Source: Undaria pinnatifida (taxonomy: Eukaryota > Sar > Phaeophyceae > Laminariales > Alariaceae). Taken from it: 64,000 bases of DNA. The DNA lies in NCBI GenBank assembly GCA_012845835.1, contig JABAKD010000006.1, positions 6,812,318-6,876,317 of the forward strand, in the 5' to 3' direction. The notes under the pieces were generated by a model, which was not told the origin of the DNA, did not search any database, and saw only the letters and a list, made by a program, of their open reading frames with translations. The position numbers and the translations under genes are program-made. Shown here one piece after another: positions 29,811-63,149 of the stretch (within the stretch, counting starts at the first letter, position 1; each line of letters begins with the position of its first letter).

Positions 29811-29958
29811 CGTCTGCTTCGACGACCACTGTCTTGGCTTCTACGTTCCCAGCGTCAAAAAAACCGCGCACGATAACCTCCTCGCAATTCTTGATGTCCC
29901 CCTTCACGGTGATGCCCTGTCCGATGATCACTCGTCCCGCGGTGGTAGGGGTGGCCAT
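29811..29958 (-). CDS. Bactofilin, first exon (minus-strand paralogue)
   Basis: This exon encodes 49 residues, opening with MATPTTAGRVIIGQG and ending in VEAKTVVVEAD, the first part of a bactofilin beta-helix: alternating hydrophobic residues and glycines, as in VIIGQG, VKGDI and EEVIVRGFFD. Bactofilins self-assemble into non-polar filaments used as cytoskeletal scaffolds in bacteria. The ATG at 29958 has a good context (ACCATGG); an open frame continues upstream but only from a non-ATG codon. The exon ends at a GCAGACG/GTGAGA donor in phase 1, the phase and near-position of the plus-strand paralogue. Unlike that gene it has no long Pro/Ala linker. Later exons were not found, so the gene is partial here. 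Confidence 0.72.
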
Positions 29959-31268: not shown

Positions 31269-31581
31269 ATGTTCAAGAAGAAGTCTTTTCGGGGTCTAAA
31301 GGAGATCACCACGGCTACGACATCATCCTCCCCCGAGCCGGCTGGGGCAGCCGCTGCTGTAGCCCCGGTTCCCCGGCCCGTCGCGCCGTTGCCTAAGAAA
31401 AAAGTCGAGGCCCCCCCTAAGCCGGTGGCGCCGCCGTCTATTGTTCCTCCGGGGACTAAGCGAGTGCTCGTGGTGGGGAAGGGGGTGGTGATGACAGCAG
31501 ACGTCGAGAACTGCGATGCGGTGATTGTCCAGGGGAACTTGGATGGGAACATCAGGGCGAAGTACATAGTCATCATGCAAG
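31269..31581 (+). CDS. Bactofilin exon 1 (plus-strand gene)
   Basis: This exon encodes 104 residues plus one base. It starts MFKKKSFRGLKE in a CACCATGT context, then a low-complexity Ser/Pro/Ala/Lys linker, then the first beta-helix rungs (RVLVVGKGVVMTADVENCD and AVIVQGNLDGNIRAKYIVIM). The donor is CAAG/GTGAGC. The open frame extends upstream without an ATG, so 31269 is the first plausible start. The segment after the donor (31582-31712) stays open but turns into Arg/Thr-rich sequence unlike a bactofilin, which supports splicing here. Confidence 0.8.
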
Positions 31582-34500
31582 GTGAGCACGTGGAGGATAG
31601 GGGGAGATTTTGTTGGGAGGTTTTCAAGAGGTTTTGGAATCGCATGACAGAGAGAGCGAGCGCGCGCACACGCATACGCACGCACTCAGGAAATATAAAT
31701 AGGTCACGTTAAATGCATACCAGTACACCCCACACTCAAGCAGGCTTGCTCGTACTCGTACCACGTGTCAGGTACAACCCTCAAGGGACAGCATGAGTTT
31801 GTCGTACCAAGACCAGATGCGATGCGACGGATTCGCATGAGTTCGAGTACAAGAGTTTCGCTTACTCTGCACTTATCCATCGCTCATCAAACATTCAGCT
31901 AAAAAAATCAACAACGACGAAATCTCATTGTTTTTCTTTCGTACCACCGAAGTATAATTATATATAGTGGTGTGTACATTTTCTGAAATTTTATGCACCG
32001 TTTTGATTTTAATATTTAGATTAACGGGTCATTATAATATAGTACGAAGGGTAATTAATATACAATGGTCGGTGGTTGCTTGCTGTTGCGGCCATCGTGC
32101 GTAGGACATCTCACTCGAACAATTCGGCGCGAACAATTGCTGTCAAATTCAAGTCACCCCAATAATTTCGAGTTTTCTTCATTGACGTTATCATAACATA
32201 GTTGGTGCTCCTTCTTCCGTTGATTCACCATTCCAATGTTTGCTTCCGAGGCCCAGTATGAATGTGATGTCTACAGCTGGATATTTACACTCGTCAAGTG
32301 GCTACCGTAGCCCCCCCCTTCCCCCCGAGCCAGCGCTCTCGCAGAGGCTCTCCCCCCCCCCCGCCCATCTGCAAGAGGTCTAGTGCCCAACATTTGGAGG
32401 TGGTTTGGCTGAATCAGCGGAGGAATAAAAAACCCTGTATTTGCCGGTTGTACGCGGTTGTACCCCTTTGCCTAAGGATAGTCTGGATGGCCCACCCTTT
32501 CCTCCCGCCCCCACCCCCTGCGAGTCATATGATGCTGTGATCAAACAGATGCTCCAGTTCGTTCATTTGTGAACAGCATAACATCCACCAGGTATTGGGC
32601 CTATGGCGTACCTCGCGTGTGTCGTGCCGAATATGAATCATTATTCTCAATGTATAGCAAGTAGAGTACCATATTGGACGTGGTTAACGTGTACCAGGTA
32701 TTCAACATTGGACGTAAGAAATTCAAAATGAAAAATGTACATGTGCTCCTGGGATTTTTTTTCATGTCGTACATTTGATGTATCATTTGTACCTGGTGCA
32801 GATATGATACACGAAACACACAAAAGAGTCTAGGTAATAGTACATGCATAATCTACGTACACACCTGATGCATGATACCTCTAATATCAAAGCAATGCGT
32901 CAGGCTTCTGTCGCACCCCTCAATATTCTGCCATCCTTACGTACGTCTTTACGCTGATGCCGCACCTCACTCGGATGCCGCTTCAGTTGCTCAAATATAA
33001 TATTCTTCGAATATCATACTGCTGTACCTGGTATCGTACAATCTTCCTCCCCCCCCCCATTTTTTCTGTGTTGCTTTTTTTTTCGCAATTTTTGCAAATT
33101 GATGCATTTTCCCCGTCAAAATCCTCTAAAGTGGTTCTCTCATCCCTTATAATATATTCAATGCTGTCCTTTTGTCCTGCCCGTTTTTTTTTCATTTTTG
33201 TGCATTTGAGTCGTTTTCGTTCGTGGTGGAAAATTGACTGTGGTGTGTACAAATTTGAACAATTCTTGAAAACTTTTCGCCCCCAACCTCCAACCTCACA
33301 ACAGCAGCAGTATAATAGTTGCTACCCACAAGTTTACTGTTTACTGCTGTACTCTGCCGAATATCATGTGCCTGTCCACCCGCCTTGTCCTCAAATCTCT
33401 CCTGAGTGGAAGCTCATCCAACTCCACCATAAAATATCGCTCTCATCCTCGTATGTACAATCCCCTAATCAAACATGCCTTCCAAATATATTAAGATTTA
33501 TTCCCACCCGCGCAAACCCCAGATTTGTTACGTACGTTTAATCTTTCATGTGGTACCTGGTACCGTACCCGTGTACGAGGCACCAGGTAAACGTTAAATG
33601 GTTAATGTGATGTTTCTGCTGTGGTCGCGAACTCTGAAATTGCTATACCCTAAAGTCCGACCTACCTGGTGTGTTGGGCGTCTCCCCTCCTGTCCTCCAT
33701 GTCCCTTCGGGAGGAGCAACGTTTGACGAGGCTTTCCTAGTGGATGCCACCCACTTCGTGATGTTTGGTGCTTTCTTGTTAACATTGCACGTGAATGTTG
33801 TTGCACTCGTAGTCGTATCTCGTATTTTTACGTGTTGCGTGTACACAACGTACACGCGTACACGTACAGCAGTAGCGCCACAAACTACAGCATGTAGAGA
33901 GCCCTGGTGTTTTTCTGTTCTTTTCTGGCATGGTTGCCGGCCGCTGTTATTTGAACGGCCTCTATCTTCGCTACAGACCAGACACACGACACGGACGGAC
34001 ATTGATCAACACCACGAGAACACCACAGTAAAAAGTCCCTGTATAGTGCCGATCGAGTAGTGCCGTTCTTCCGCTATAGTGCCTGTGGAATTGTTTTGGT
34101 TCCACCTTGGGACGAGGGAAAAAAAAGCTGTTCCTTTCTCGCGACAAAAATGAGAGTACGTGGGGAGAAGATCCTGCTTCGCGACGCCGGATCTGAGTTT
34201 TGCATCCAGGGACAGAGAAGGACGAAGACATTGCGACGGTAATAGATGGGGTGAGCAAAAAAACACGCTGCCACAGCACAGGGGTACTATTCATTGTATT
34301 TTTTAAAACCAGTACGAGGTACTTCTGTAGTAGCAGTTTGCGGAGTAGTGCTGGTTACCGCTGTCGTCGTGCTGGTTGCCGCTATTGTGCCGTTTTTTCC
34401 GGCTTGCGCATGCCGGCAGGATAGCGGGACACATTTTATTAACCCATGTTGTGTGAGAGAGACCCATGGACAGCGACCAAAAAAGCGATGCGGATTCCAT

Positions 34501-37500
34501 TATTGACCATGTGCAGCGACCAAAAACGATGATGACAAGAGTAGTATTAATATAGTATCAAGCAACTTCAGCTGTACTCGTGGGGAAAGCGTCAAAAACA
34601 TCATTTGCACCCCTACGTACGTAGCCGTGTATGTACGTATAACCCATGTACCCTTATTTAATAGTATACCTCTAGCAGCATACATATGTACCTGGTACCA
34701 GGTCGCAACCCGACCAGACGCGGGGCTAATCCCTAACCTAGCCCGAAAATCGTAAGCACCCTTACTTAATACGAGGTACACTACTTGTAGCATACCGATA
34801 TACCTGGTGCCAGGTCGCAACCTGACCACAAGCGGTACTAATCCCTAACGTAGCCCGAAAACCGTGGGGGGTGTGGTCGGGCGGTGTATACCAGGTATAA
34901 AATATCAGCTGTAAAATGCGATACGTTGGGTAGGGGTGCATGGGTTCATATATACGCCCTAGGGTTTGTAAGTTGTTTGGGATGGTGTAGCGGTACGGTC
35001 GTGCTGGTGTGATGTTGGGCGTATCATCACGCTTTGCGCGCGTGTCGTTGCACAAGTTTTCTCTCCTTGCAGTTCGGGCGCATATCACGCATCCCCTACC
35101 TGTGAGCGACCCCGGGCTGACTTGTGTAATCGATGCCGTACTCGTCAGATTTTGTGGACGGTTTTTCCCTGTGATTTTCCACTTGTGTGGTCGATGCCGT
35201 ACTCGTCAGATTTTGTGGACGGTTTTTCCCTGTGATTTTCCAGAAAAAACGTGAGCAACAGCACGAAAAGCTGTTCGAAACACGGAGAAAGATAAACGAG
35301 TGAGAGCAGAGAGGTCCATGGGGTTTGTTCATGGCAGGCGGTGAAATGTTATTTCTGCTTGCCGCTTGCTGTGGTGCATGTGGTACCACATCTACCTCAA
35401 CCCATGCCGTTGTCTCTAGCGGATTATCCCCCCAAACGTTCTCCTCTGGCAGGCCGTATGACCGGGTCTCAGGACTGGTAATGGTAAGGAATAGGATTTT
35501 TCGTCTATTTCATATAATAACCCACCAACAAGCCGCCCCCCATCCTATCTCATGACCTATTAACGCGTTCCCCAACATGTGGTACTCGTTCGTGTTGTGG
35601 TTCGCTTTCGTGTTGGGTGCTTGTTTTGGGTAGTTTGCGTGATCGTTGTGTGCTTGATTGATTGTTCAGTCGCTGACTGCTGTCTGTTTTGCTTTCAAGG
35701 ACTGAAAATTGTGAGAACGCTTGAGAAAAGGGTGTATTAAATAGCACTATTACCCATTTAGAGCCCCCGAACCCCTCCCTATACTAAATCCAAGTAACTT
35801 TATCTCAAGAATGGGTTTGCAGTTGTAAAGGGGTTAATACCTGGTAGGCGAGAGGGTGGAAGATAGCCGTTTAACTCGTGGAGCCTGCTGGTAACCACTC
35901 TAAAAAAATGCCTCACAGTACGTCATCAGTAGCTCTAAGTTTAACCCGAAAACGGACATGCCTCAGTAGTGGAAAAGGGTTTTGGGATCCAAGTAAAGCA
36001 ACGACCTCGTGCCGTGTGCGTGAGCTTGACGTTATTAACGTACTTCGGTATACTTGTAACGGAAGCGCGCAGAATTACGGAGTATCATGCACAAGAGTGC
36101 CATACTGCTGTGTGTCCATATCGGGGATGTCCTGGCATTCTATACTTCAAGTATATAGCTCGGGTACACTCCCTCCCTACTTGTGTCGGCCTGGAGCCCG
36201 CACTGCTTCGAGTAGCCGGCGTGTATGGATCGTCTGTTCTTTTCGTCATTTTTCGCCATTGAAATATTGAAAATCACGACGAGCAAGGGATTGGTTAGCA
36301 GGAAGCAGAGTGCCTGTTAATTCCAGGTATGTATTCTCTATCATAAGGGCTAGGTGGTGAACAGACGACCGACTAGCAGGTATATACGTACTCTGTTCCT
36401 TCCCGTGTTTTGGTTTTTGCGCCGCCGTCGCCGCCGCCGCCGCCGCCGCCGCCCGCTCGGACCTATCGAAAGGGATAGAGACGTTTTTTTCTGAACAATA
36501 ATGCCCTTTTAGATGCGACACGTATTATTGTTGGGCTTGTTGTAGAATAAACCCGATCTTCTCTTTTTCTGCTTGGTGAGCCCGTCATTTTCGACAAATG
36601 TTGCGGCGCCTCGGCGGCTGAGATCTCCGAACCAACGGGCTAGGGCTAGGACGGTAAAAATGAGATATTTTTTTACAATTCTTTAGGTACGGCAGTACCA
36701 GGTAAGGGTCCCTTATTTGGGCGGTGGTGTGCCGAGAGCACTATGATCGCTTTGTTGAGGGTAGCCGCATCACTCTTGAATAGGTCGGTTACCGCCTTGA
36801 TGAGAAAATACCTTTTGTTAGTGTGCTATACGGTACAGTATAATAGCTATTGACCTAGCAGAGCGCTGCACGACGGCGGAATGCTGCGGGTGACCACGTA
36901 CAGGGTCGGCACTGCTGTGCTCTATCCTGGGCAGCGAACGCAGATGCATACCCGGTCAAAATGAAGATCTGTCGAAAATTATGTATTATCGTCTCAGCAG
37001 AGTTGACATGGTATATGTTTGAAGATGATCGAAAGCAACTGACTCTGCTGCCGTAATGAGAAGTGCCGTCGACTGCCTACACCTTGCTGCTGTAGGTGCA
37101 CCAATCCGGAACAATGCAGCGTTACTGTAACAAGACCAGGAATACCGCACCGGAACCATGCAGCATATCTCTGCTGCGCTACCCCCTCCCCCTCCTCTCC
37201 TTTAGTCTAGAAAAAGGACGCATGCCGCGCTGGCTTGGACGCATGCGCTTCGATGAACGCCATCCTGGCCTTCTGCGGGTGGAAGACGGCGTTGTCATTG
37301 CCGCCCTCCTCCGCTGCCCTCTCCAGGAGGTCAAAGCCCCGAAGAAGTTTCAGCGTAGAGCGGCGGCACAGAGGCCTCCACACCCCGTCGTCTAGTTGTC
37401 GCCGTCCTCCTTCTCGTCAACAGTGGGGTCCACGCCCTCACACCAGTGCTATCCAACTGCCCCGTCATCTCTTCCACCGCATCCAACCGCGTTGCTTCGA

Positions 37501-40500
37501 AGACGCCCTCCTGGCCCTCTACTGTCGCCCAAACTTGAGCCTCTTCGATGGCGGCCTGCCTCGTCGGCGCACTCTCTCGGGATGTTCATAATCGTCAACG
37601 AATGGGGCAACTCCCGTGTCAAGTGACGGGCGACCCGTGTTGATCTGCCTGGCGCACACGTGAAACTCCTGCTGTGGAGCGTTTTCGCCAGCCCCTCCAC
37701 CGAAGGTTGTTGGGAACCGCCAGCGTCACGCACGTGCCGTTGTCACACGAAAAAGACGCAGGAAGTCATTCGTCTCTGTCTTTCTCAAACAGCAGTCTCA
37801 CATTTCACTTTTTGGTAGCAACAGACCGGGGCTGCTGCTGTTGCTACTGCGGCGGCGGCCTGCCATGAACGAAAGAAACGCCGCCAGAGAGCTCAATGAC
37901 CGGCGAGATTCAAGTTGTGTCCGACTATCTATCCATCACCAAGTTATTGCGCAACGTGCGAAAAGGAATTTGGTTGCATTCGGTCTCCAATTTGGTCAAC
38001 ACGTGTAATGCACAGGTTCGAAACCACCAGATGTTGTATACGTTCGTACCCGGTGTTTCATGTGTGGTAGTGTGTTTTTTTTTGTTTACCATCGTTACAC
38101 CTTCTCCCACATTCGGAGAAATCGTAATGGAAGGCTTTAGGTTGTGGGAAGAAACCAATAAGCCACTATCCAAACACGATTATTCCGGTTTTCGTAGTGT
38201 TTAAAGGAATAGGGTTAGGCTTTCAACCCCCCCCCCCCCCCCCCCCTCCCCCCCCTCTCCAAACAAGTGAATAACACTGTGATCAGGACGATGTACCTGG
38301 TACAGTGTTTGATCTGTTGTGGTTTTTCCCACGGCCATGAGCCTACAAATAGGTGTGCGACTCACAAACCGGACACTAAGTCGTGTACTTCAAATCAGCC
38401 AACCTCGTATATGCCTGGAATCAGTGCACTGTTGATACCACTAGCGAAAGGTGCTTGCAAAAATCTTGAGTACTGATTGCCGGTTTGGTCCAACTCCCAG
38501 CCCATGTACTGCCGTATACCAGGTATACCGGTATGTTAACCGCCGGTCGCCCCGGTGGCGTATCAGGTCATCCTCGAGCCTGGTATAGGTCGGTTTCGTG
38601 AGATCGAATCCCCCCGAGCGCATGCATACGAGTACTCGTATAAATTCGTGGGGACTTTCCTTGCGCACAAATTGACTTGCGGAAAGCGCGAGAGCGTGAG
38701 TTAGCAACACCCGAGGAAAAATCGACGAGCAGTGGGATTGCTGAACCGTATGCGCGATAAAAACTGAAGGCAAGAACGGAGGGGGAGAAGGGACGACACC
38801 TGTGACCACGGTTTGTCCAGAAGCTGGAAAGTAGAAGTGTGCGAAAAAAAAAAAAAAAGTGTTGTACCTAGCTCGAATTCGAGTTTCTCTTTCGCACCGC
38901 GCCATGAAATTAGACGGGCTTTTCGAAATTTTCTGGGGCCGGATTTGACGTGTGCTGTCGCCCGGCCGAAAAACGCACACAGGGTTGACGACAGGTTCAA
39001 CCTGCTGCGCGAGCTCCCACAGGTAGCGACACACTCATGCTTTAGCTTGCGATACCAATGAGTTGACACAAAATTCCGGGTTTTGTTACTGCTTTTGTGG
39101 TATTATTTGGTCATTTTGAACCCTTGTCAACCATTGTCTTGCGTGTTGTTTCGTCATCTTGACCCCTTGCCAAGCACTCTGGTGGACCTGTTTTCGCTGA
39201 CAAAACTCCTTGGAGTCGGGCTGGGTCGTTGTGCTGTGTGTGTTGTCTTCACATCAAACCGTTGTTTCTACCCAACGACTCAAGTACACCCCGAGTCCGT
39301 GCTGGTTCATCCTAGAGAGATACAAATTATGTGGTCACAGACGACTGCTGTGAAACAAAGTACACCAAACAGTAGTCGCGATTCATCAAGGTAAAGCAAG
39401 CGTACCGGGTACGATAACCCAACAAAACAAGGTACCTGGTAGACCATAAAAAAATATAAAAAAAAGGAAAAGGAAAAAGAACAAAAGGAAAACTAAGTGA
39501 AACAAACGACAGGTGTTTTGAAGGATGTGATGCAAGAAGATCTGAAAGGAAAGGATAGGCTACAATTGCCAGAGGAACACTACTGCTATACGAACATACT
39601 ATTTTAGTAATATTTTGCCAAGGATTAATATTATGATGCCTGGATATGAAATGCCAGTTGGGAACCTTATTTTCGTTAAAGTGTTCTTGTTTTAACCGCT
39701 TCTTATGAGACCGTTTCTTAATCCGAAAATGAAAGTAGTTTTCGGGCCGCAGAACCATTCGGGCAGAATCTTATCGATAACCCTTGTAATGAATTATTAT
39801 ACCGTTTTTTTTAAGATTGGGCAGAGTCGCGAATTTTTCAACAACGGTCATCTCGCTTGACTTCGTGCTGGTACGAGTTCGCCGCACCAGAACATCTCAG
39901 CGCACGCAGACGAAGCTTTGTAGGTGGGGCGAGGGAAAACACGCCGTGTGCGCTTCTTGCGAGGAGGGTTGTCTTTCCCGTCGCCCTCGTCAATCTGGTG
40001 CATAAATGACAACGACAGGTCGCAGACGGCGGCTGTCCTCATCCTCGACGGCACATATGTGTTTTGCGTTTGGCGAACGCCGCAATCGGAACCTCTAGGA
40101 AAGTGGCAATACTCTCGCAGTCGTCACCAACACTGTCCGACCCCATCGATCCGTCCTGATGCCCCGAGGTCTGCAAGTGGGTTGCCGGGCACAGCAGCGG
40201 CACGCATACACCCATGTATGATATGATTTGCTTGCTCAGCATTTGCATCGTGTTGTGTCTTGTGCTACTGCTGTTCCCGGCTGATTATCTCGCTTGTTGC
40301 CTCCCACGACGTATGGAAATCCGTCGTGATGCACATCCTGACGCCGTATTCGGCTACGATATTATCCGAAACTGGACCCCCCGTTACCGGGTGGGGGCCG
40401 TCCCAAAAACGATACCCAGCTATCCGAAAGTAGAAGGCTGAAAATCACCGGTTTCGGGTTTGTATGGGTTGCAAACCGGTTTGCTGTCCGAAATCGTTCA

Positions 40501-55500: not shown

Positions 55501-58500
55501 CTTTCGGGTAGTGTTGGACTTGCGCAAGCTCGCCCACTAACAAAACACCCGGCCGCGACGAAACAGCCTTCCGCCGGACTTGGTCCAGTTACGGTCCACC
55601 CTACCCATTCGGGCGTTGGTCCTCTAGGCATTATATTGAAGTAGGAGGCGGGGGAGAGGGGGGGGGCAGGGCACCAGTCGCCTCCCCCTCTCAACTCCTT
55701 TAGTAGTGGGTGTATATATCGTAAGGTGGTTAGAGTGGCAACCGCTTGATATACAGCGGTTGAAATCGGTTTTCACGACAGCAGTAACTACGGATACAGC
55801 ATGCAGCAGGCTAGACGATTAGGGGGGCTGTCTCTCGATGCTGTAGTGCAGGCAAATTTTCTTCGCACCCATATTGGTCTGGCTTGTTTTGTTGTGTTTT
55901 TGCTTGTACCCGGTACGCTCTCACTTCGCTTGCTTTGCCTTGATGAATTGCGACTGTTTGGTTTACTCTGTCTCACAGCAGTCTGTGACCACATAATTTG
56001 TATCTTTGTAGGAGGAAGAATCAGCACCGGCTCTTGGTGTACTGATGTCGTTGGGTAGAAAGAACGGCTTAATTAATGTAAAGACAACACACACTATTAT
56101 ACCGCCTTATACAGGCTCCAATTTTGCTGTACCGTTTTGGAGATAAATTACTTGATGTTAGGGTGGGATAATCATGGCCGTAAGAAAAGGGTTATGAGCG
56201 AATTTTTCCCACTGCGTTTCATTATTCCATGGGTCGCATTATTTGCGTGGCGAAGATCGAGCAATAGGCGGCAAACGCACGTGCACGCATATCCCCTCAC
56301 CCCTTCGTCCACCCCCACCCGCCCCCACAATGGTTGCTTTTGGGTCCAGCCTCAGGGCCAGTTCGTCACGTCAATGGTTGTATAGGGTTATTTATTAGAA
56401 GTTTACATATGGTTATTTGCTGGTTATTTGCCGCCGTGTCGTTTGTTGTGGTCGCAGGCAGCCTTGTTGGCTTGTTGGGCTGTGGCTTTCATCACGCTCT
56501 CTTGTTCTCTCGCATGCCGTATGTCGTATGTCTGTTTAGGTTACAAACGCCAGTCGTCTTAAGCTCCCTAATGTAGATGTCTCTGTTTCGTTTCTTGTTG
56601 GCCTCGCTTTTTTATGTCTCTTGTTTCTTCGCCGCTCTCAAACTGCTGTGTCATCATTTTATCCTTGCCCCTTGTTGTTTCTCCTCTATTCCTCTACCAG
56701 TTATGTGTCTCCATCCCTGTCTCTAACTCGTGTGCTCGTTATTCACCCCGAATCTCTTGTGCCCCCCCCCCCCCCCCTGCCCTCCCTCCCTGCCTCTGTC
56801 TCTTCGTCTACTTCTATCGCTCCCCCCGCCCCCCTCCCTCCACCCATCCCCCTCTTGCCCTCCCCCTCTATGCAAACCCCGTATTATATTATTCTCTATA
56901 CGGTGTTAAGGTGGATGCATGCGAGGCAAGGTTGAGTGCGAGGAGGCGGATGTGGCGGGATCGTTCGAGGGCATGGAGATGGTGGCACACCACAGGCTGA
57001 CGCTCAGTGCGACAGCGAGGGTAGGGGGCAAGGTAAGACGGCGGTGGACGTGGGGGAGGGGCAGGACCACAGCATATTTTTGTCAAGATGTTACACGTGC
57101 AGTCTAGAGAGGCCATCTGGTATGGGACAAAGATGTGTGTTGACGGTCTAGTTTTGTCCCGTCAAGACCTTGTTAGACGTAATATACTGACTTTATTCAT
57201 GCATGAAGCGGTCCTTGACGGCTGCCCGTCATACGTCAATAATGCCGTCATCCGACATCTTTGGTATGGGGGGGGAGGGGGGACAGAAGCACGGCTTAAG
57301 TTATTACCATGTTACGTTTGGGGAGGCGGTGTTTGGGGAGGGGGGTTGTACTTCGCTTGTGCATGGCCGTAGTCGTATGACCATAGACCCGCGCATCCCT
57401 ACTCTGCCGGGACGGAGCACGTCGGGTTTTCACCAACCAGGCAGACACTGCTTACACCAAGCTTGAATGTTTGGGGAAGGGGGAAGAAATTATCATGCAT
57501 GGCCTTAGCCTCAACCCCTTCAGAGCCCCAAAAATATCTCCCTTTATTTATTTCAAGTAACTTGTCCCGAACAAACGGGTTTCCAGTTGCAAAGGCGTCA
57601 AGACCATAGACGCCTCGCATCCCAGGACGGAGTGTGGTGAGATAGGGTTTTCACTGGAAAATAGTATAGACTAGCGTCGTAGTATGGACAGTCGAGTCAT
57701 TATTAAGAATTGTCAAGTGTGGAGAAATAAGGTTTCCAGGGAAGAATTTGATTTTGGTTCGGGTGCTTACGAATTCTTCATGAGCAAGAAGTCCGTTTAA
57801 CGTTAAGACTTTTTTTAACCGTTTTTTGTTCTGTTGCTATTAATAGGCGGATTTTAACTTGAGAAAAAAATAGCAGGTTTTTTTAACCGAATTGCAGAGT
57901 GAAAAGGCGAAGTTTTGACCTGAGAGAGGACCAAATGAGAAGCAGGACGCTCAACTTCAATTGATTAGGCGAGAAAAAAATGGTAGCATCTGTGGGAAAA
58001 TGGGTTAAGATAGAAGAGAAGAAAAGACAGGTCTTCCGTTTAGATCGAATGTGCCGAGGCTAGGCGGTAAATGTCACACGAAGCTGGCGAAGAATTGGGT
58101 CTTCCCTGGCAGCGGTAGGTAGCCTAGAGAAGCGTTGGCCAGCAGTTATCTGAGGAGAACCGGCTTCTCTTCCTGCGGTTACTGCAGTTGTTGCGGTAGG
58201 GTTTGAGCTTGTCAGAATTTGGAAGAGTTGTTATAAAAATAAAAAATACCCTCCGGCTATGAGATCGAAGATTTTGTCGAAATTGATCCATGCAAGCTGT
58301 GTGTGACACTCCGATCGCGTTACGTAGCATTTTGGAGCAATAACGAGCAAGAAAAACGAGCTCCAATTGATCAGTCTCGTAGTATTCCGTCCTCAACCGC
58401 CTTTGCTGTATGAGACATTATTAAACGGTAGACCTTACCATTTACCATTTGTTAGTCGAGAAAATTTTGCGAGGTAGGTACACTACTGTGTACAAGACGA

Positions 58501-61500
58501 AGGGGCTTAACCCCATTGAAGCCCTAAAACCCCTCCGTGTACTAATTCCAAGTAATTTGTACCGAAAACGGGTTTCCAGTTGTGCAGGCGTTAACCTTTT
58601 TCGAGCCCCCAAATCCCCCCTGTGTACTGACTTGAAGTAAATTTGTCCCCCAAAAAGGGTTTCCAGTGGTGGAAGGCGTTAACCCTACCTTTGGTCGACT
58701 GGGTTTTATTGAGTCAGGGTTATAGAAATGAAAAATTATACCTCGGACAGATCACCGATCCCTACTTGATGATATACTGTAGAATTAACGCCTCGACAAC
58801 TGTAAACCCTTTTTGGGGGACAAATTTACTTGACGTTAATACAGGGGGGATTTTGGGGCTCTACAGGGGTTACAACGCCTGCAACCCGTTTTAGGGACAG
58901 ATTACTTGGAATTAGTATACGGAGGGGTTTTAAGGCTTCACCTTTATATTTCATGAAATATCTGTTTGGTCTAGCTCATGCTTCCCTATGGGAGCCGTAC
59001 GATCAGCATCTATAACACGTGTCTCCTGGGCTTGATATGTCCAAAGTATCTGTCCTACTAGTATGTCCCCTAATAAACATGCCTTCCAAAACGTAATAAG
59101 GTCCATTCCTGCTCCACAAAGCTCAGATTTACTTCGTTCAGTATTTTACGCTCAGGATCTGTCCGAGGCCCAGATTTCCTACGTTCATTGCAATCTTACA
59201 CGCTCAGGATCCGTCCGAGGTGTCGAAAAGTATCTCAACTTGTAGGACAGGTGGTAAGGTAACGTCTTTCTATAAGAAATGACCCTCGATGACGGCGAGA
59301 CACAGCATCGGCATCCATTAGCGGTCTACAAGGAGCGCACTTACTCCTTTCCCTCACATTGGCGTCGTCGGCAGTTCTGACGCCAGGATAGTGCCGCTGC
59401 TCGGGCACAGGGGGGCCTATGAAATCGCAGACATGAGCATGCTCTGCACGCGGCCAACCTAGCTTTGCGAACAACATGCTCCAGTCTGCGATTTCATGGT
59501 CTTCCTGTGCGCGATTGGCACTATCCGCTGGACTCACCGCGTCGCCCGGCACCACTGCCGAAGCCTCGGTCGTGGCGGCTGCCGAACTGGGGGCCGGGCC
59601 CTTCCCCTCCGGCGAGGGGACGAGCACGGATCCCGCTCCGTTCTCTCGCCTTCCGACTTGGGCGGAGATATCAAAGGGGACGCGGGTGATGTGGCTGTAG
59701 CAACGTCCTGGTAAACGTGTAACTCGGAAGGGGGGGGGGGGGCAGCGGGTGTTGTTTCGGCTGTTCCATCGGCGGGGTGTGGCGATAGCACGAGCTAAAG
59801 GCGCCTTTACCGGCGAGTGACGATGGCCTTGAACCGTGGCAGTCCTATCCCCACGGTTCTGACTGCTGTGGCGGGGTTTGCTAGATATATCCGGAAGGAT
59901 GCGAGAGGGGGGGGGGGGGTCGAGTCAACATTTTCTGATGCGAGAGACAGCGCGGATGTGAGAGGCTCGACTGCTAGATTCGGTGTCCGGCCTACTGCCG
60001 ATCGTCCCCTCCTTGAGCATGTGGGCCGCAGTAGTGCTACTTTCCACGACGGTGAGGCGGGGATCGGCCCGCACTCGACAACGCCGAATCAGGTATCCAG
60101 TGAGAGATATGCAGGGGACGGAATGTCACTGCGTGACTCGACATGCCTATGGGAGACGCAAGACGACGGGTCTCGGAATCAGGGATGCTACCCTGCTTGG
60201 TCACGCTACGCTCTCCCATAGCCTGACTCTCGACCCCCTGGAGGTCCACCGTACCTACCGAGTCCCCGCGGGTACTACCACGGCGAGGCACCGAGCTACG
60301 CATCAGAGCGCGACCGTGCGTGGTGCGCGCGTTTGAGCCGGCGTGAGAGAGAGCTGAGGTGTCTGGCCCACGACTACCCACCCATCCCCCCGTCCCACTC
60401 CCCGAAACGAGCTCACTGATGTTACTGTTGATAAGGCTTGGTTTTTGTCTTCTCTTTTCTCAGAATGGCGTCGTCGGCAGGCCGTGATATTTTTCAAGAG
60501 TGGGGTCGTATGTTGAATTCTTCATACTATTGATATATCTTTTCCAACCTAAGAGTGTGGAAATGGCGAACACCCTCGTCGTTATCGTCGTCGTCGATGT
60601 GTTTTTGGGTTTTGGCGTGGTTGTGGGTTGTTGGTGCTGGCGTTGGCGTTGGCGGCGTCGTGGTGGTTGTGGTTGTTGCTGGTGAAACTCGTTTTGTAAA
60701 CGGCGTGGAAAGACACGTCAGCTGTGAGGCTTCGTCGAGACTCGTCGTTGCGAGCTGCTTGCGATACGTTGGTCGCGCGAGCCACGGTAGTTCTGTTGTT
60801 AGCATTCTACTTTGTGGTATCCGATACTAGTGTTAGTACTGTAGTTGTACGTAATACCTCTCTGTGGTCCCTACCCGAAGGCCAGGAAACGGGGAGTTTC
60901 CACTATGGGAAGTTGGCTGGGCTGACGGGGTGGCATACATGACTGGATGTCCCATATAGGGCTTCCCGTATAATGTCCTACAGGAAAAAAATATCTCCAT
61001 GGGAGCATAATATCCCGTGGGATATTTCCCGTACGACCAATGTGTCCAGTAGGATATCTCATGGGTTTTTTTCCTCATGAGACGTCCTATAGGAAATCTT
61101 TCAATCACATGAGATATGGGACGTGAGATACGGGACATGCCATGGGACCAGTTGGGACTTCCCACAGGAAAACCTAGTTCCCGCGGGGCATCCCACGCGA
61201 CCGATGTGTCCCGTAAATGGAAATATCCGACATGGTATGTCCTACGGGACGGTCTTGTAAGGAACACCTGTCAGGTGGTGGTGTAAATCATACGGCTGAC
61301 GGGGCAGCCCCCGCCCCCCCCCCGCCGTTTCATCCATAACGCCTCAGACTACGGTGTTGGCTCTCACAGGTGGTTTGGCTGACCGTTGGAGGTGGCCGAA
61401 ACTGCGTGGCCTGAGTGTAGGATGGCATGTTGGGGGGGGGGGGGGGGGGGCAGAAGGTGGAGGTAAGGCTACAGGTGAACATGTGACTTGTGGGTTTGGT

Positions 61501-62728
61501 AGGTGTTGAGTTTGTCTGTATGCCTTCGTAGCCACTGCATGCCGTACGCCAGCCGAACGAAGACGGCTACAAAAATGGTCGATCCGCGAATTACACGGCT
61601 TGCCCAGCTTGCGCTTTTTTTTCTAAACTGTTTTTTTTTTGCCAAGTTGAAAGTTTTTGCGAGCTGGGTGAATGACACGGTGATGCGTTTCGATTTTGAT
61701 GGCACGTGTTTCTTATTCTTGGTCTATTTCAGGCAGCTGTTGTCGTTCTTGCGGCGGCGAGAGCTTTAGTAGTGGGTCCGACCAAAGGCGTTTTGAAACC
61801 CTTCCATGTGCATGTCACGTTCCCATCCCTCCCTCGCTCACTCCATCCCTGCTTCCTGTCCTGGCCTGCCCGCCTTTTCCTCTTCCCCCGACCCTCCCTT
61901 TCTCCCTTGTCGTCCCCCCCTGTTGCTCGCCCTTGCGTTTTCCCCTCCCTGCGTCCCTCCCTTTCCCTTTCCGTTTCGTCCCTCCATCCCTACCCCCCCC
62001 CCCCCTCTGCCTTGCCTCCATTACAATGTTGCCCAAAACCTTCTCTTGGGCCTGTTTTCTTTCGATTCTGCTCGTCTGCAGACAACGTACCACCGCCTTT
62101 CGGTTCACGATGGCGCGATCCTCACGGGGGAGCTCCAGTACAAGCCGTCCTCCCGAAAGCCCCGATCTGGGTCTACGGGAAAAGTTCCCGCTTCGACAAC
62201 GCTGGTAAGCCGGCGTGAAGACACCTCCCCCCCCCCCGCCTCCGCCTCCACCCCCTCGCGCTCGCCGTCCCCCTCCCCCCCCCACCAAACTATTGCCGAT
62301 GTTCGACAGCGGGCTGCCGTAAGCAGTCGCGACATGGTTGGGGCATCAGGTAGTCGCGAAATTGTGGGGGCGCAGGAGCAGCCGCAGCAGCTGCTACTGC
62401 AGCAGCAAGAACGACCGCAGCAGCAGCGCCAACTTCAGCTTCAGCAGCAGCAGCGCCAGCAACGATCCTTCCCGCAGCAGCAACTTGAACAGGTTCAGCA
62501 GGAACGTCAACCATTGTCGCCCCCGCAGCAGCAGCGCCAACAGCTGCAGCTGCAGCGCCGACAGCAGCAGCAGCAGCAGCAGCAGCAACAGCAACGCCAA
62601 CCACCACAGCAGTGGCAGCAGCACCATCAGCAACGGCAGCAGCGACTGCAGCAGCAGCAGCAGCAGCAGCAGCAGCGCGAAGAAGAGCACCCCCACCACC
62701 AGCAACAGCAGCGTCAGCAGCAGCAGCG

Positions 62729-62759
<31 letters not shown>

Positions 62760-63149
62760 AGGCTGCACTACCAGCAACTCCAGCAACAATTCGAAGCATC
62801 AGCGCGGAGACAAGGCTAAACCTCATCACGGTCACGCACAAAACGACAAGATTACAAAATGCTGCTGCCTGATGACGTCAGCCGGTGTTCAAGGTTCAAC
62901 ACCCTCCCCCCCCCCCCCTGCCTCCGCCCCCCCATCCCTTGCCTGCCGCCCCTCCCTTGCCTGCCGCCCCCCGCCCCTCTGCCCGTTTTCTCGATGGGAA
63001 CTTCCCCCCAGACTACCCCTGCACCCGAAGAATCCCCCGCCCCAGCAGCTACCGTAGCACCAGAGGAACAGCAGGGAGACTCTGCGAGTACAGGTGCCGA
63101 TTCACCGCCCGCTTCCAATGGGCCGGCGGATGCGGACTCCACGCAGTGA
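31269..63149 (+). CDS. Bactofilin gene, four-exon model spanning 31.9 kb
   Basis: The proposed exons are 31269-31581, 56911-57032, 62082-62204 and 63012-63149, giving about 231 residues. Order: basic MFKKKS start, Ser/Pro/Ala/Lys linker to about residue 62, bactofilin domain about 65-167, and a Pro/Ala/Glu tail. Bactofilins form unpolarised filaments and often bind membrane through the N terminus; the cell role in this organism is unknown. Splice phases fit throughout (1, 0, 0), each intron is GT-AG, and the joined domain runs without gap or stop. Introns are 25,329, 5,049 and 807 bp; the first two carry much mobile-element debris. The alternative is two or more bactofilin loci each with missing exons, which would need matching phases by chance. 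The last exon is the least certain. Confidence 0.7.
31713..34030. other. Gene-free stretch inside intron 1
   Basis: AT-rich segments (31980-32060, 33000-33260), C-rich runs (32310-32365 and 32500-32520) and several ACCAGGTA/TACCTGGT words (near 32590, 32695, 33020, 33550) are present. The 194-codon frame at 32957-33541 is rich in Phe, Ser and Leu codons from T-rich DNA and has no domain. No gene is supported. Confidence 0.4.
34031..34440 (+). mobile_element. MITE-C interrupted by a SINE-2 copy
   Basis: A MITE-C left end (GTCCCTGTATAGTGCC, 34037) is followed by a plus-strand SINE-2 body (34103-34262, with GCCGGATCTGAGTT and GGTGAGCAAAAAAAC). MITE-C-like internal words (GCGGAGTAGTGCTGGTTACCG, GCTATTGTGCCG) then resume at about 34325-34405. 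The arrangement suggests the SINE landed in the MITE. Confidence 0.5.
35121..35242 (+). repeat. Two-copy 61-bp tandem repeat
   Basis: CTTGTGTRRTCGATGCCGTA begins at 35121 and again at 35182, and the rest of the unit, through GGACGGTTTTTCCCTGTGAT, is identical. Only two bases differ between units, so the duplication looks recent. Non-coding. Confidence 0.9.
35750..35855 (-). repeat. MITE-D core fragment
   Basis: Carries the reverse complement of the MITE-D core: TTTAGAGCCCCCGAACCCCTCC, CCAAGTAACTTTATCTC and GGGTTTGCAGTTGTAAAGG. The inverted termini are absent, as in several other core-only fragments. Confidence 0.65.
36000..36275 (+). repeat. Dispersed repeat G fragment
   Basis: Carries TGCGTGAGCTTGACG and, towards the right end, GGCCTGGAGCCCGCACTGCTTCG followed by GTTCTTTTCGTCATTTTTCGCC, matching the right part of repeat G at 10.1 and 52.2 kb. 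Diverged; low identity by eye. Confidence 0.35.
36419..36452 (+). repeat. GCC microsatellite
   Basis: About eleven GCC-type trinucleotides in a row. The minus-strand frame across it reads as a poly-Ala run but has no flanking domain. A second GC trinucleotide run lies at about 45025-45060. Confidence 0.85.
37155..37640 (-). pseudogene. Possible decayed coding sequence, family unknown
   Basis: On the minus strand one frame reads APTRQAAIEEAQVWATVEGQ and continues through LDAVEEMTGQLDS to a stop near 37343 (plus-strand coordinates), and a second frame downstream reads FDLLERAAEEGGND and KARMAFIEAHASKP. Both have an ordinary, Glu/Ala-rich composition unlike the low-complexity frames around them, and they lie in the same direction with a frame change between. 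I do not recognise the family. It could be a frameshifted remnant or two exons of an unknown gene antisense within intron 1. Confidence 0.3.
38225..38262 (+). repeat. Poly-C tract
   Basis: An almost pure run of C, interrupted by two T-containing breaks, about 35 bases long. Similar C runs occur at 24069 and 48481 and G runs at 40558 and 61432. Their true length may be uncertain because of sequencing slippage. Confidence 0.9.
38545..38858 (+). mobile_element. SINE-1, full-length reference copy
   Basis: A 314-bp element with a tRNA-like head. Box A TGGCGTATCAGG is at 38556-38567 and matches the Pol III consensus TRGYNNANNNGG; box B (GATCGAATCCC) lies at 38602-38612, at tRNA-like spacing. The body follows with GCGGAAAGCGCGAGAGCGTG, AATCGACGAGCAGTGGG and ACCACGGTTTGTCCAGAAGC, and a 15-base A tail ends it at 38858. 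Other copies lie at 2.1, 11.7, 15.3, 27.0 and 50.1 kb on both strands, with shared 3' ends and variable 5' ends, as expected of retroposition. Such elements need a partner LINE, none of which is visible here. Confidence 0.85.
39305..39370 (+). repeat. Dispersed repeat H fragment
   Basis: Carries TCCTAGAGAGATACAAATTATGTGGTCACAGAC-type sequence in two pieces, matching the reverse complement of the TTTGTGACCACAGA block of repeat H at 18.7, 47.0, 47.75 and 55.98 kb. Confidence 0.4.
39845..40250 (-). pseudogene. Possible decayed coding sequence, perhaps transposase-derived
   Basis: Two overlapping minus-strand frames have ordinary protein composition. The first contains DDCESIATFLEVPIAAFAKR, the second MHQIDEGDGKDNPP and KKRTRRVFPRPTYKASS. 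The basic RRVFPRPTYKAS stretch resembles the sequence before the nuclease domain in some PIF/Harbinger-type transposases of algae and oomycetes, but this is from memory of the family and not decisive. No DDE catalytic region follows; the sequence to the left (39700-39840) is AT-rich with no domain. It may be the eroded 5' end of a transposase or an exon of an unknown gene. Confidence 0.28.
40558..40571 (+). repeat. Poly-G tract
   Basis: A run of about 13 G between simple AGGTGGCC and CTCACAGC sequence. The frames crossing it on both strands are low-complexity. Confidence 0.85.
41140..41335 (-). repeat. GACCC-rich repeat, related to 4.1 kb
   Basis: Clusters of CCCGACCCG and GGGTCGGG words. 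The reverse complement shares order and spacing of landmarks with 4095-4310 (ATCCGACCCGT, TATACCA, TCAAAACTT, GGGTCCGG, GGTGTTTGGAATCTCACGGG). So the pentamer-rich DNA belongs to a dispersed element and is not only a local microsatellite. Confidence 0.5.
41541..42560. other. Gene-free stretch with T- and purine-rich strand bias
   Basis: Long runs of TTTTGTTT-type words (41640-42210) give way to an A/G-rich GACAGAC and AGGCAAACAAGG series (42290-42420). Frames over it are leucine/phenylalanine or lysine-rich from composition. A CAGGTATCAGGTGCCAG word lies at 42238-42254. No gene is supported. Confidence 0.4.
42561..42920. mobile_element. MITE-D, complete single copy
   Basis: The left end GCTTGCTACGATAGAGGT and the right end ACTTCTATCGTAGCACGC are inverted repeats sharing TGCTACGATAGA. 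The interior holds the CTGAATGACGGGGCTCC block, the CCAAGTAATTTTGTCCCC core and AGTTGTAAAAGGGGTTAAGC. 360 bp. It is the best-defined copy of the family with the one at 26.6 kb. Confidence 0.8.
43320..44045 (+). repeat. Purine-rich GACAGAC-type degenerate repeat
   Basis: GTAGACAGAC, CCAGACAG and AGGCAAGCAGG words recur at irregular spacing, and a block AGGATAGGGGAACCGGTAGACAGG is directly duplicated (about 43319 and 43371 landmarks). CCAGACAGATGTGAC recurs at 43703 and near 42405. Long minus-strand Cys/Ser/Leu-rich frames are by-products of the strand bias. Confidence 0.5.
44525..44660 (-). repeat. MITE-D core fragment
   Basis: Carries the reverse complement core (CCTCTAGAGCCTTAAAACC, TTTTGTCCCCAAAAACGGGT, TTCCAGTGCTGGTAAAGGCG) together with a forward TTGGAATTAGTGTAG word. 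No inverted termini. Confidence 0.6.
44971..45088 (-). CDS. Possible exon of an unknown gene
   Basis: On the minus strand a CTTTCGCGCAG acceptor precedes 118 bases that open as VTAANSFKFPPA, run through a poly-Ala stretch encoded by a GCC/GCG repeat, continue as QIRAAGAATTAAGVTIN and end at an AATG/GTAGGT donor. The flanking splice words are good and the frame is open, but the poly-Ala core is a trinucleotide repeat and no domain is recognised. It could equally be a microsatellite with chance splice signals. Confidence 0.22.
45475..46125 (+). repeat. Cluster of repeat F copies
   Basis: A long copy at about 45475-45665 (GTTGACCCTGG, CACGCTGCTTGCAAAGCTGAG, CCCACAGCTCAAGTG) is followed by a partial copy at 45700-45830 and a third end at 46030-46120 (ACGCGCGATCGGAGTA, TTCGACGAAATCTTCGATCT, GCAGCTGGAGTG). 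Between them, 45935-46030 carries the terminal block of repeat E, GCACGCATTCTCATACACGTCG, shared with 51.6 and 55.25 kb. Confidence 0.6.
46318..46397 (+). repeat. 20-bp minisatellite, four copies
   Basis: Four exact direct copies of GACAGATCCCTGGTCTAAAT. Very recent local amplification; likely length-variable between individuals. Confidence 0.95.
46985..47310 (+). repeat. Repeat H fragment followed by repeat J copy
   Basis: 46985-47090 matches repeat H (CAGTCTGTGACCACAGAAC, GGATGAAGAATGAGCAC, TTTAATGTGAAGATAACACAC) as at 55.98 kb. 47130-47300 matches repeat J at 24.15 kb (GCGAGACGGGTCAGTCAAGG, GTCAAACCGATCGTTCC) and contains a TACCTGGTACCA palindrome. Confidence 0.5.
47685..47905 (+). repeat. 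Dispersed repeat H
   Basis: Carries GCATGGCTAAATCA, GTTTATCTCTGTCTCG, TTTGTGACCACAGAC, TCTCTAGGAGGA and TGTGTGGATGGGTGGA, in the same order as 18.65-18.83 kb (ATGGCCAAATCACC through GATGCAGATGGTTGGACA). About 200 bp, non-coding, both ends uncertain. Confidence 0.55.
48481..48507 (+). repeat. Poly-C tract
   Basis: A run of about 25 C followed by TCAAGG and a second short C run. It ends a fragment (48340-48420) that resembles a diverged reverse-strand SINE-2 body (TTCAATGTTATCGCG, CAGCGTTTTCTTG). Confidence 0.85.
49150..49890. mobile_element. Compound of repeat H and MITE-C pieces
   Basis: Repeat H on the reverse strand covers about 49155-49310 and 49790-49890. Between them MITE-C pieces carry GGTCCCTGTATAGTGCCGG (49318), CTCTATAGAGGGAAATACCG, ATAGGCACTATAGCGGGAAA (49591) and CAATATGGCGGGCACCCGG (49713), and a repeat F block lies at 49445-49505. 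The long minus-strand frame across it is a chance frame over several elements. The order suggests repeated insertion into one another. Confidence 0.55.
50110..50308 (+). mobile_element. SINE-1 copy, 5' truncated
   Basis: Begins within the SINE-1 body (GCGGAAAGCGTGAGAGCGTG) and continues to ACCACGGCTTGTCCAGAAGC and an AAAT-type tail (50288-50306). The tRNA-like head is missing. It lies directly before the SINE-2 copy. Confidence 0.8.
50309..50697 (+). mobile_element. SINE-2, longest copy with tRNA-like head
   Basis: The head carries a box B word GAGTTCGATTCCC at 50377-50389, preceded by an inverted repeat (GCCACAGCAGTAT at 50309-50321 and ATACTGCTACTGCTGTGGC at 50347-50365) that would fold into a hairpin. 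No box A with a full consensus match is visible. The body follows: GACGCGAGCCGACGAGG, ACATGAAGGCACGTAGCG, CGACCCCGGATCTGAGTTAC, ending in an A run at 50687-50696. Truncated copies occur at 2.8, 7.8, 10.8, 12.9, 13.0, 34.1 and 51.2 kb. Confidence 0.7.
50800..51175 (+). repeat. ~160-bp direct duplication
   Basis: CATATTTTCCTCGTTTCGCC, TTCACRGCCGACAT, CCACCCCTCTTTGG and CAATCGAAAGCACGTCGCAGG occur twice in order (landmarks 50819 and 50988, spacing about 169). The second unit ends in CACACGCAGCAGCCCCCGG. The long minus-strand frames reflect the duplication and no domain is recognised. Confidence 0.75.
51220..51480 (+). mobile_element. SINE-2 copy, 5' truncated
   Basis: Carries CGATGCGATTCGACGAGG, CGAAGGCGCGTACCGTAGTGG, AAGAGCCTGCTTGG, TGATCTGAGTTTTCG and AACGAGCAAAAAAAG in the SINE-2 order. 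It is the best-preserved body after the 50.3-kb copy. Confidence 0.75.
51567..51670 (+). repeat. Dispersed repeat E
   Basis: A T run followed by TCATCCTCCGGCGGATGGGG, a short hairpin, then AAAGCTTTTAGCTCACCAC and CATACGCGTCGTGTGTCGAT. Related copies lie at 53.12-53.2 kb (reverse), 55.12-55.29 kb (interrupted) and 45.94-46.03 kb (partial). Confidence 0.65.
51975..52260 (+). repeat. Dispersed repeat G, long copy
   Basis: Contains two partial duplicates of TTTCATTSRCCMACACRYGC (52001 and 52066), then GACGAGCGCGATCTGCCTCA, CGATGCTGTAGCC and TTTTTTTTCTCGTCTGATTC. Matches the 10.0-kb copy in order. Confidence 0.6.
52341..52601. mobile_element. Possible MITE with CTACGGTAGCCCCCC termini
   Basis: The left end GAGTCTACGGTAGCCCCCCC and the right end GGGGGGCTACGGCGGTAG are imperfect inverted repeats about 260 bp apart. 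No second copy was recognised in the window, so the element call rests on the termini alone. Confidence 0.35.
53115..53205 (-). repeat. Dispersed repeat E, reverse copy
   Basis: Reverse complement of the 51.57-kb block: ATACGTGGAAGTGTGGTG, TAAAGCTTTACTTTTCCCC, ATCCGCCGGAGGATATA and a 15-base A run at about 53183-53197. Confidence 0.65.
53221..53735. mobile_element. Long MITE-C relative
   Basis: The left end GGTCTCTTGTATAGTGCGGT and the right end ACCGCACTATCGAGGGACT are inverted. The interior repeats CGCACTAAAGCGGAACC-like and GGGACATCGC units several times (53266, 53307, 53590, 53684), so it is probably an expanded or nested form of the family. No coding capacity. Confidence 0.6.
54050..55120. 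other. Gene-free stretch inside intron 1
   Basis: Holds several TACCTGGT and CCAGGTATT words (near 54747, 54808, 54970-54992) in AT-rich DNA. A segment at 54390-54450 (GATGGCCCGTGGTCGAACCGTCCC) loosely resembles a tRNA-derived head but lacks a box A. No gene is supported. Confidence 0.4.
55120..55295. repeat. Repeat E interrupted by a MITE-D core
   Basis: The repeat E block (T run, CATCCTCTGGGGGATGGGG, 55125-55150) continues only after about 100 bp as TTTAGCTCGCCACACATGAA. Between the two halves lies a MITE-D core (AGAGCCCCAAAACCCCTCC, AAATTTGTCCCCAAAAAGGG). Comparison with the intact copy at 51.57 kb shows the insertion directly. Confidence 0.65.
55955..56095 (+). repeat. Dispersed repeat H fragment
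   Basis: Matches 46.98-47.09 kb over GATGAATTGCGACTGTT, GTCTGTGACCACA, GAATCAGCACCGGCTC and AATGTAAAGACAACACACAC. The shared segment also extends left (TTGTGTTTTTGCTTGTACCC at about 55895), so both belong to a longer duplicated unit. Confidence 0.6.
56911..57032 (+). CDS. Bactofilin exon 2
   Basis: The exon reads two bases that complete a Gly codon, then GCMRGKVECEEADVAGSFEG, EMVAHHRLTLSATARVGGK: the central rungs of the bactofilin helix with the characteristic GKV, ADVAGSFEG and ARVGGK turns. The acceptor is TGTTAAG after a very long C/T tract (56755-56880); the donor is GGCAAG/GTAAGA in phase 0. An ATG at 56919 opens an internal frame but is unlikely to be a start. The frame beyond the donor turns into Trp/Arg-rich sequence, which supports splicing. 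Confidence 0.78.
57506..57615 (-). repeat. MITE-D core fragment
   Basis: Carries CAACCCCTTCAGAGCCCC, CAAGTAACTTGTCCCG and GGGTTTCCAGTTGCAAAGGCG, the reverse-complement core of MITE-D, without termini. Confidence 0.6.
58490..58960. repeat. Clustered MITE-D cores in both orientations
   Basis: Reverse cores at about 58498-58595 and 58590-58685 (GAGCCC, GTCCCCCAAAAAGGGTTTCC) are followed by forward cores at about 58785-58870 and 58868-58945 (AACGCCTCGACAACTG, GGAATTAGTATACGGAGGGG). It forms an inverted arrangement of two pairs, similar to the tandem cores at 5.0-5.3 kb. Confidence 0.6.
59235..60410. pseudogene. Coding-like GC-rich segment, identity unknown
   Basis: The segment is GC-rich, free of the repeat families, and has longer frames than its surroundings. 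On the plus strand a 134-codon frame (59817-60221) is followed in the same frame, after one stop, by an open stretch with YASERDRAWCARLSRRER. On the minus strand frames at 59235-59627 and 60037-60381 overlap. Part of 59415-59510 is an inverted duplication around TGAAATCGCAGAC. I recognise no domain. It may be a decayed element gene; direction is uncertain. Confidence 0.25.
60935..61260. repeat. Cluster of short GTCCYATRGGAC-type palindromes
   Basis: Short imperfect palindromes made of TCCC and GGGA halves recur every 15-40 bases: GTCCTACAGGA, TCTCCATGGGAG, ATATCCCGTGGGATAT, GTCCTATAGGA, GCCATGGGACC, TTCCCGCGGGGC and GTCCTACGGGAC. The units are not tandem copies of one sequence but share a spacing-variable inverted plan. 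Confidence 0.6.
61432..61451 (+). repeat. Poly-G tract
   Basis: A run of about 19 G in otherwise mixed sequence. The minus-strand frame reads it as proline and is not supported as coding. Confidence 0.85.
62082..62204 (+). CDS. Bactofilin exon 3
   Basis: Encodes 41 residues starting TTYHRLSVHDGAILTGELQY, the last rungs of the bactofilin domain (a tYxRLxVxxGAxLxGxL pattern), then a Ser/Pro/Lys/Arg-rich stretch ending PASTTL. The acceptor is CGTCTGCAG after a long C/T tract; the donor is ACGCTG/GTAAGC in phase 0. Larger open frames that start near 61696-61806 only cross the pyrimidine tract of the intron. If the donor is not used, the frame runs on into the glutamine-rich tail. Confidence 0.78.
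62205..62819 (+). CDS. In-frame glutamine-rich extension of the bactofilin (retained intron or alternative end)
   Basis: From the exon 3 donor the same frame stays open for 204 further codons to a TAA at 62817. After a Pro/Ser-rich part it becomes dominated by CAG/CAA codons, with several runs of eight or more glutamines and scattered Leu, Arg and Pro. A 105-bp GT-AG segment (62205-62309) could be removed without changing frame. So one transcript form could give a bactofilin with a tail of about 170-205 residues. The alternative is that this is an expanded CAG repeat inside intron 3 and not translated. Confidence 0.4.
62385..62795 (+). repeat. Interrupted CAG repeat
   Basis: About 400 bp dominated by CAG and CAA triplets, with pure runs near 62560-62590, 62650-62677 and 62730-62760. 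Overlapping frames read it as poly-Ser, poly-Ala or, on the other strand, poly-Leu; only the glutamine frame connects to exon 3. Confidence 0.9.
63012..63149 (+). CDS. Proposed last exon of the bactofilin gene
   Basis: After a C-rich tract (62905-63010) and CCCCCCAG, the frame reads TTPAPEESPAPAATVAPEE and ends SNGPADADSTQ with a TGA at 63147. It starts in phase 0, as needed after exon 3. A short acidic Pro/Ala tail after the domain is common in bactofilins. No domain lies in it, so the assignment rests on phase, acceptor quality and direction. Confidence 0.5.
   Translation, partial: TTPAPEESPAPAATVAPEEQQGDSASTGADSPPASNGPADADSTQ

Follow-up and report, generated by a model that had tools for sequence, protein, structure and literature searches.

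Overall organization of the bactofilin locus

Analysis of a 64,000-nucleotide stretch of Undaria pinnatifida DNA (hereafter the window) indicated, at the level of its sequence, that the plus strand carries a genuine brown-algal bactofilin gene split by introns and comprising exons 1–3. A preliminary description of this DNA had proposed four exons, and all four are present (Table 1), joining in frame into 231 codons plus a stop codon, with GT-AG borders at three of three junctions. Its main claim, that a bactofilin gene extends over about 32 kb of eukaryotic DNA, agrees with a match to the Pfam family PF04519, with paralogues of similar intron plan, and with the brown-algal nature of the genome. 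In the frame of exon 1, a single ATG lies between the bactofilin domain and the stop codon upstream of it. The gene, its domain, an N-terminal motif, the paralogues and the intron plan are all visible in the DNA.

The minus strand also carries a bactofilin first exon, which the earlier reading overlooked and which belongs to a divergent partner gene. This exon reads MATPTTAGRVIIGQGITVKGDIKNCEEVIVRGFFDAGNVEAKTVVVEAD plus one base, and exons 2 and 3 of the partner lie to the left of the window, at C55:6809330-6809218 and 6799633-6799547. The partner product scores 63.4 bits against PF04519, and the plan of the partner is as in the window gene, the two being arranged head to head with 1,310 bp between the start codons. 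The bactofilin gene described here is, as the genome sequence reads, not solitary; it belongs to a head-to-head pair and to a family of about ten.

Table 1. Features of the bactofilin locus (window coordinates)
Feature	Position	Strand	Remarks
Partner bactofilin first exon	29811..29958	-	
Spacer between the two divergent start codons	29959..31268	.	1,310 bp
Exon 1	31269..31581	+	start codon; codes for MFKKKSF, the Pro-rich linker and the beginning of the domain; phase-1 end
MFKKKSF codons, candidate membrane-targeting peptide	31269..31289	+	resembles MFSKKKK (PMC12448750, accessible part)
Intron 1	31582..56910	+	25,329 nt; GT-AG; six-frame scan without any Pfam family at E<=0.01
C-rich pyrimidine tract 5' of exon 2	56733..56882	+	
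Exon 2, middle of bactofilin domain	56911..57032	+	22.9 bits to PF04519 alone; 30.5 bits to bacteria-only profile
Intron 2	57033..62081	+	5,049 nt; GT-AG
C-rich pyrimidine tract 5' of exon 3	61815..62036	+	
Exon 3 as proposed, domain end (at 62135) and start of tail	62082..62204	+	required for the match to extend to profile position 97
Open continuation of exon 3, poly-glutamine tail and stop; preferred 3' end	62205..62819	+	
Possible in-frame GT-AG intron within the tail	62205..62309	+	105 nt; by reading
C-rich pyrimidine tract 5' of proposed exon 4	62893..62995	+	
Exon 4 as first proposed; doubtful or alternative 3' end	63012..63149	+	in frame; no homology support

Scanning the window for Rfam families and tRNA genes returned no matches. 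Several tandem arrays were observed in the window: about 64 copies of the pentamer GGTTG (8779-9099), about five copies of a 201-bp unit (16164-17189), and two arrays in opposite orientation (5019-5307, unit 96 bp; 58522-58684, unit 85 bp) that seem similar on visual inspection.

The bactofilin domain is assembled from three exons

Profile search of the four-exon join against PF04519 revealed a match of 63 bits (E=3.3e-17; cut-off 27.9 bits) over residues 68–163, covering positions 2–97 of the 98-position profile, in line with the earlier assignment to this family. By position, the domain lies wholly inside exons 1–3. Taken singly, exons 1 and 2 score 16.5 and 22.9 bits, both below the cut-off, and exon 3 alone gives no PF04519 match. 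A single central domain is flanked, by reading, by an N-terminal region rich in Pro, Ala and Ser and a C-terminal region rich in Gln.

A bacteria-only profile, built from 15 bacterial relatives, gave a consistent picture. Among the frames of the window it ranked exon 2 highest (30.5 bits), followed by exon 1 (12.3 bits), the minus-strand exon of the partner (11.4 bits) and then a frame at 5.9 bits; exon 3 was not among the best eight. The joined protein scored 65.9 bits with the same profile. The best score across 30 dinucleotide-shuffled versions of the window was 9.8 bits, which exons 1 and 2 each exceed. Furthermore, profile A5, made from five domains of the type A defined below (four algal and one from Comamonas), matches the solved bactofilins 2n3d (E=5.9e-8), which we take to be Bactofilin A of Caulobacter, and 6ria (E=1.4e-6), presumably the Thermus bactofilin. 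As a single query, the window gene matches 2n3d with E=0.0028.

Introns and splice sites

The preliminary description had noted a long C/T tract before each later acceptor, and C-rich pyrimidine tracts lie just 5' of three of the three claimed acceptors. Seven such tracts were found on both strands of the window, three of them directly before the claimed acceptors. Three tracts pass a cut of 88% pyrimidine in 100 nt, two of which precede exons 2 and 3; with a cut at 93% in 60 nt, the single tract left is T-rich (46799-46892) and precedes no exon.

Comparison with the paralogues, designated here by contig, supports the splice sites. The window gene (Q[G]G) and the C38 gene (E[G]G) are interrupted within the domain by a phase-1 intron at the identical codon, and the C30 exon starts at that codon, such that the splice sites of the window gene gain support from the shared position and phase. 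Both introns of the partner have the same phases as those of the window gene, each junction being one codon off in the alignment. The C32 and C52 genes share an intron position that differs from that of the window gene. The domain intron of the C38 gene (L032, L031) seems to have a GC donor (GAAG, then GCAAGA) and a normal AG acceptor.

The reading of exons 1 and 2 as two separate genes was rejected, because the 25.3-kb intron 1, translated in six frames with stops as X, yields no Pfam family at E<=0.01. It is also countered by the domain-interrupting introns of the partner (32.8 kb), C38 (14.5 kb) and C32 (19.2 kb). The paralogue introns measure 32,797 and 9,584 nt in the partner, 14,472 nt in C38, 19,225 nt in C32, and 2,152 and 787 nt in C52; by these gene models, long introns are usual in this bactofilin family of Undaria pinnatifida.

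A glutamine-rich tail as the preferred 3' end

The frame of exon 3 remains open past the donor at 62204, up to a stop codon at 62817-62819. Within it, a CAG repeat coding for glutamine extends over 62310-62819, with many CAA and no TAG codons. The repeat part comprises 147 codons: 68 CAG, 37 that differ from CAG by one step and 42 that are more distant. The one-step changes fall on position 3 in 21 cases (15 to A, giving CAA), on position 2 in 13 and on position 1 in three. TAG occurs in none of the 147 codons, against 15 occurrences of CAA. Given equal likelihood of the two equivalent transitions, 15 against 0 would be improbable; the repeat frame is therefore probably translated, with slippage or strand bias as alternative causes of the 15:0 ratio. 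These counts make the poly-glutamine frame ending at 62819 the more likely 3' end, rather than exon 4. The 105-nt GT-AG stretch at the start of the tail may or may not be removed as an intron.

In the model first proposed, intron 3 (62205-63011) would be spliced out and the protein would end in exon 4 without a Gln-rich tail, with the same function. A good donor, a C-rich tract and the AG at 63011 speak for this ending, as does the open, in-frame reading of exon 4. However, exon 4 has no homology support, and its third-position GC of 0.51, taken from 45 codons only, compares with 0.68–0.78 in exons 1–3; the uninterrupted exon 3 frame, with a codon composition as if translated, also argues against splicing at 62204. 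We therefore retain exons 1–3, which contain the entire PF04519 domain, and consider it fairly unlikely that the four-exon model is right throughout. The extended exon 3, ending at 62819, is used below.

About ten bactofilin genes in a brown-algal genome

EsV-1-7 repeats are abundant in the genome, with 2158 first-look candidates; 150 were scored, all 150 exceeding the cut-off, and none of 14 control genomes contained them (cf. PMC7457493, accessible part). A large EsV-1-7 family is a brown-algal trait that is rare in other stramenopiles, according to the accessible text of PMC12993054, and the repeats thus mark the genome as brown-algal. Contig C30 accounts for many of the 150 matches listed.

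In the 511,146,479-base genome we count about ten bactofilin genes, which fall into two sequence types. Eight matches came from a genome-wide Pfam search; they reduce to six genes once the low-complexity match on C21 is set aside and two matches on C1 are taken as one gene; protein searches added the window gene, the partner, C52 and C30. Type A comprises the window gene, the partner, C38, C30, C32 and C52, and type B comprises C1, C18, C27 and C29. C52 and C30 are weak in the protein search (best E=0.014 and 0.018), and their inclusion rests on reading of the exons. Eight of the nine other genes score over the Pfam cut-off; the C30 gene, represented by one exon, stays below it at 23.6 bits, and without it the family counts nine. 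PF04519 is matched over nearly its full profile length by the window-gene join, the partner, C38, C32 and C52.

The C21 candidate was rejected despite a score of 37.4 bits, over the Pfam cut-off, as it reads as a low-complexity VKGRV repeat. Weak protein matches were left out of the count, namely two on C26, one on C36, C38:13944734 and C55:7150404, and the family may have further members beyond ten. Near the intact first domain exon of the C52 gene, a degenerate-looking extra copy of it with a weak score (MVLWRGIMMKGDVDDCA) was seen on the minus strand of L040 (9469-9552). Upstream of the C38 gene (L033/L032) lies a brief open stretch, MSHIRRKSFSRKLR, that is similar to the basic N-terminal sequence of the window gene and could be the first exon of C38.

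Phylogeny and origin of the algal bactofilins

A midpoint-rooted tree of 32 rows and 100 columns was calculated, in which six of the 29 inner branches are starred and 11 are open. Its rows include C1, joined by eye and probably containing about three intron residues, and partial C18 and C30 sequences; C27 and C29 were omitted. At the main split (94/97), type A falls together with proteobacterial bactofilins of the DCDTLVVEG type, and type B joins other bactofilins, close to those of Caballeronia and Paenibacillus. The six algal type A genes do not form one clade, as bacteria nest among them. The bacterial loci came from patterns made on the window gene and one Comamonas protein, such that the search leans to that type; at least 591 stretches matched and at least 14 loci were confirmed, among them L050 from a Rhodospirillales bin and L051 from an unplaced proteobacterium. 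The other bacterial sequences of the tree were taken from plasmids or PDB outputs. We infer from this tree, with its biased sampling and few firm branches, that types A and B might have been acquired separately.

Three other accounts of the gene were weighed. Bacterial contamination of the assembly, suggested by the mainly bacterial occurrence of bactofilins, can practically be dismissed: introns split the domain, the gene sits on a 12.7-Mb contig, and intron-bearing paralogues occur on other contigs. A relict or silent gene, with exons as remnants that are no longer expressed or filament-forming, might be expected from the very long introns and the divergence from bacterial sequences. Yet the three domain exons are open, the splice sites are intact and the domain is full-length, and the paralogues are intact too, all of which renders such decay distinctly improbable.

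A giant virus, and not bacteria directly, might also have been the source of the gene or the vehicle of its transfer. The accessible text of PMC12192438 reports a bactofilin in Imitevirales, and that of PMC12993054 describes giant-virus inserts in brown algal genomes, some of whose genes have gained introns. Against this, pattern scans of IMG/VR, which reach close relatives only, gave no relative, and the relatives found, by a biased search, are proteobacterial. A viral route appears quite unlikely to us. A search of phage records gave no match at E<=0.1.

Putative function as a membrane-held scaffold

The N-terminus of the window gene, MFKKKSF, resembles MFSKKKK, the membrane-targeting consensus of bacterial bactofilins according to the accessible text of PMC12448750; by this likeness only, it is a putative membrane peptide. 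The same text states that M1, F2, K4 and K7 of Caulobacter BacA matter for membrane binding, and that membrane binding and polymerisation stimulate each other. A pattern of F plus basic residues, sought anywhere before the domain and not in the first residues only, precedes the domain in 10 of the 15 bacterial type A relatives (L051 lacking its start), against 2.4 expected on shuffling. It is found in the window gene and C32 and is absent from the partner and C52, which argues against a membrane-scaffold reading.

On the basis of the N-terminal motif and the profile matches to solved bactofilins, we propose a membrane-held, nucleotide-free filament scaffold. The product would probably comprise about 390 residues, with a short basic N-terminal peptide, a Pro-rich linker, one β-helix domain and a Gln-rich, probably disordered tail. 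The N-terminal peptide may dip into the membrane. The domains would assemble end to end, with no need of nucleotide, into non-polar filaments, which the N-terminal peptides would hold on the cytosolic membrane face. The Gln-rich tail would be left free to recruit clients, the whole forming a stationary membrane scaffold; the partner, which has no such N-terminal peptide, may co-assemble with the window gene product. Expression, fold, polymerisation, membrane binding, the choice of membrane, clients and co-assembly all belong to the part of this model that we infer. Since the identity to bacterial relatives is only 29–35% among the matches listed, polymerisation may have been lost. To our knowledge, brown algae have no peptidoglycan, and the best-studied kind of bacterial client would thus be absent. 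Altogether, we regard as reasonably probable the view that this nuclear, paired gene of an approximately ten-gene brown-algal family encodes a product of about 390 residues that forms a membrane-held filament scaffold. A bacterial type of cell scaffold may thus operate in a seaweed.

A more far-reaching view, which we put forward tentatively and hold to be possible but doubtful, is that brown algae run a membrane-bound bactofilin cytoskeleton derived from two separately acquired bacterial lineages, which expanded to about ten genes, including a co-assembling divergent pair, and gained a Gln-rich tail. If true, a complex multicellular eukaryote would possess a further filament system in addition to actin and tubulin. 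A brown alga with about ten bactofilins of two types would be a natural test of whether a eukaryotic cell can incorporate a bacterial filament and of the role such a filament has where peptidoglycan is absent, and the gene models permit direct tests by RNA analysis, localisation and knockout.

Comparison with known bactofilins

Bactofilin is named among the polymer-forming proteins typically absent from eukaryotes in the accessible text of PMC12448750. The preliminary description held that eukaryotic bactofilins are known from stramenopiles, in agreement with Deng et al. 2019 as cited in the accessible text of PMC9448923. A literature search on bactofilin and algae, reaching few subscription papers, returned no title about an algal bactofilin; as far as it reached, the divergent pair and the brown-algal family are new, while stramenopile bactofilins have already been published. 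Compared by that citation only, the stramenopile bactofilins of Deng et al. 2019 (PMC9448923) share the domain and the kind of lineage with the window gene. The bactofilin of Imitevirales giant viruses, compared by report only (PMC12192438, accessible part), likewise lies outside bacteria, in viruses of eukaryotes.

Among the matches listed, the nearest prokaryotic counterparts, at the domain identity given above, are the proteobacterial bactofilins of the DCDTLVVEG type (at least 14 loci, mostly betaproteobacterial, in addition to Comamonas). Unlike the window gene as modelled here, they have neither introns nor a Gln-rich tail. The solved bactofilins 2n3d and 6ria share the domain of the window gene by profile, with weak pairwise similarity, and are separated from it in the tree by the main split. 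At the N-terminus, the membrane peptide of Caulobacter BacA is MFSKQAKS (PMC12448750, accessible part), compared with MFKKKSF in the window gene.
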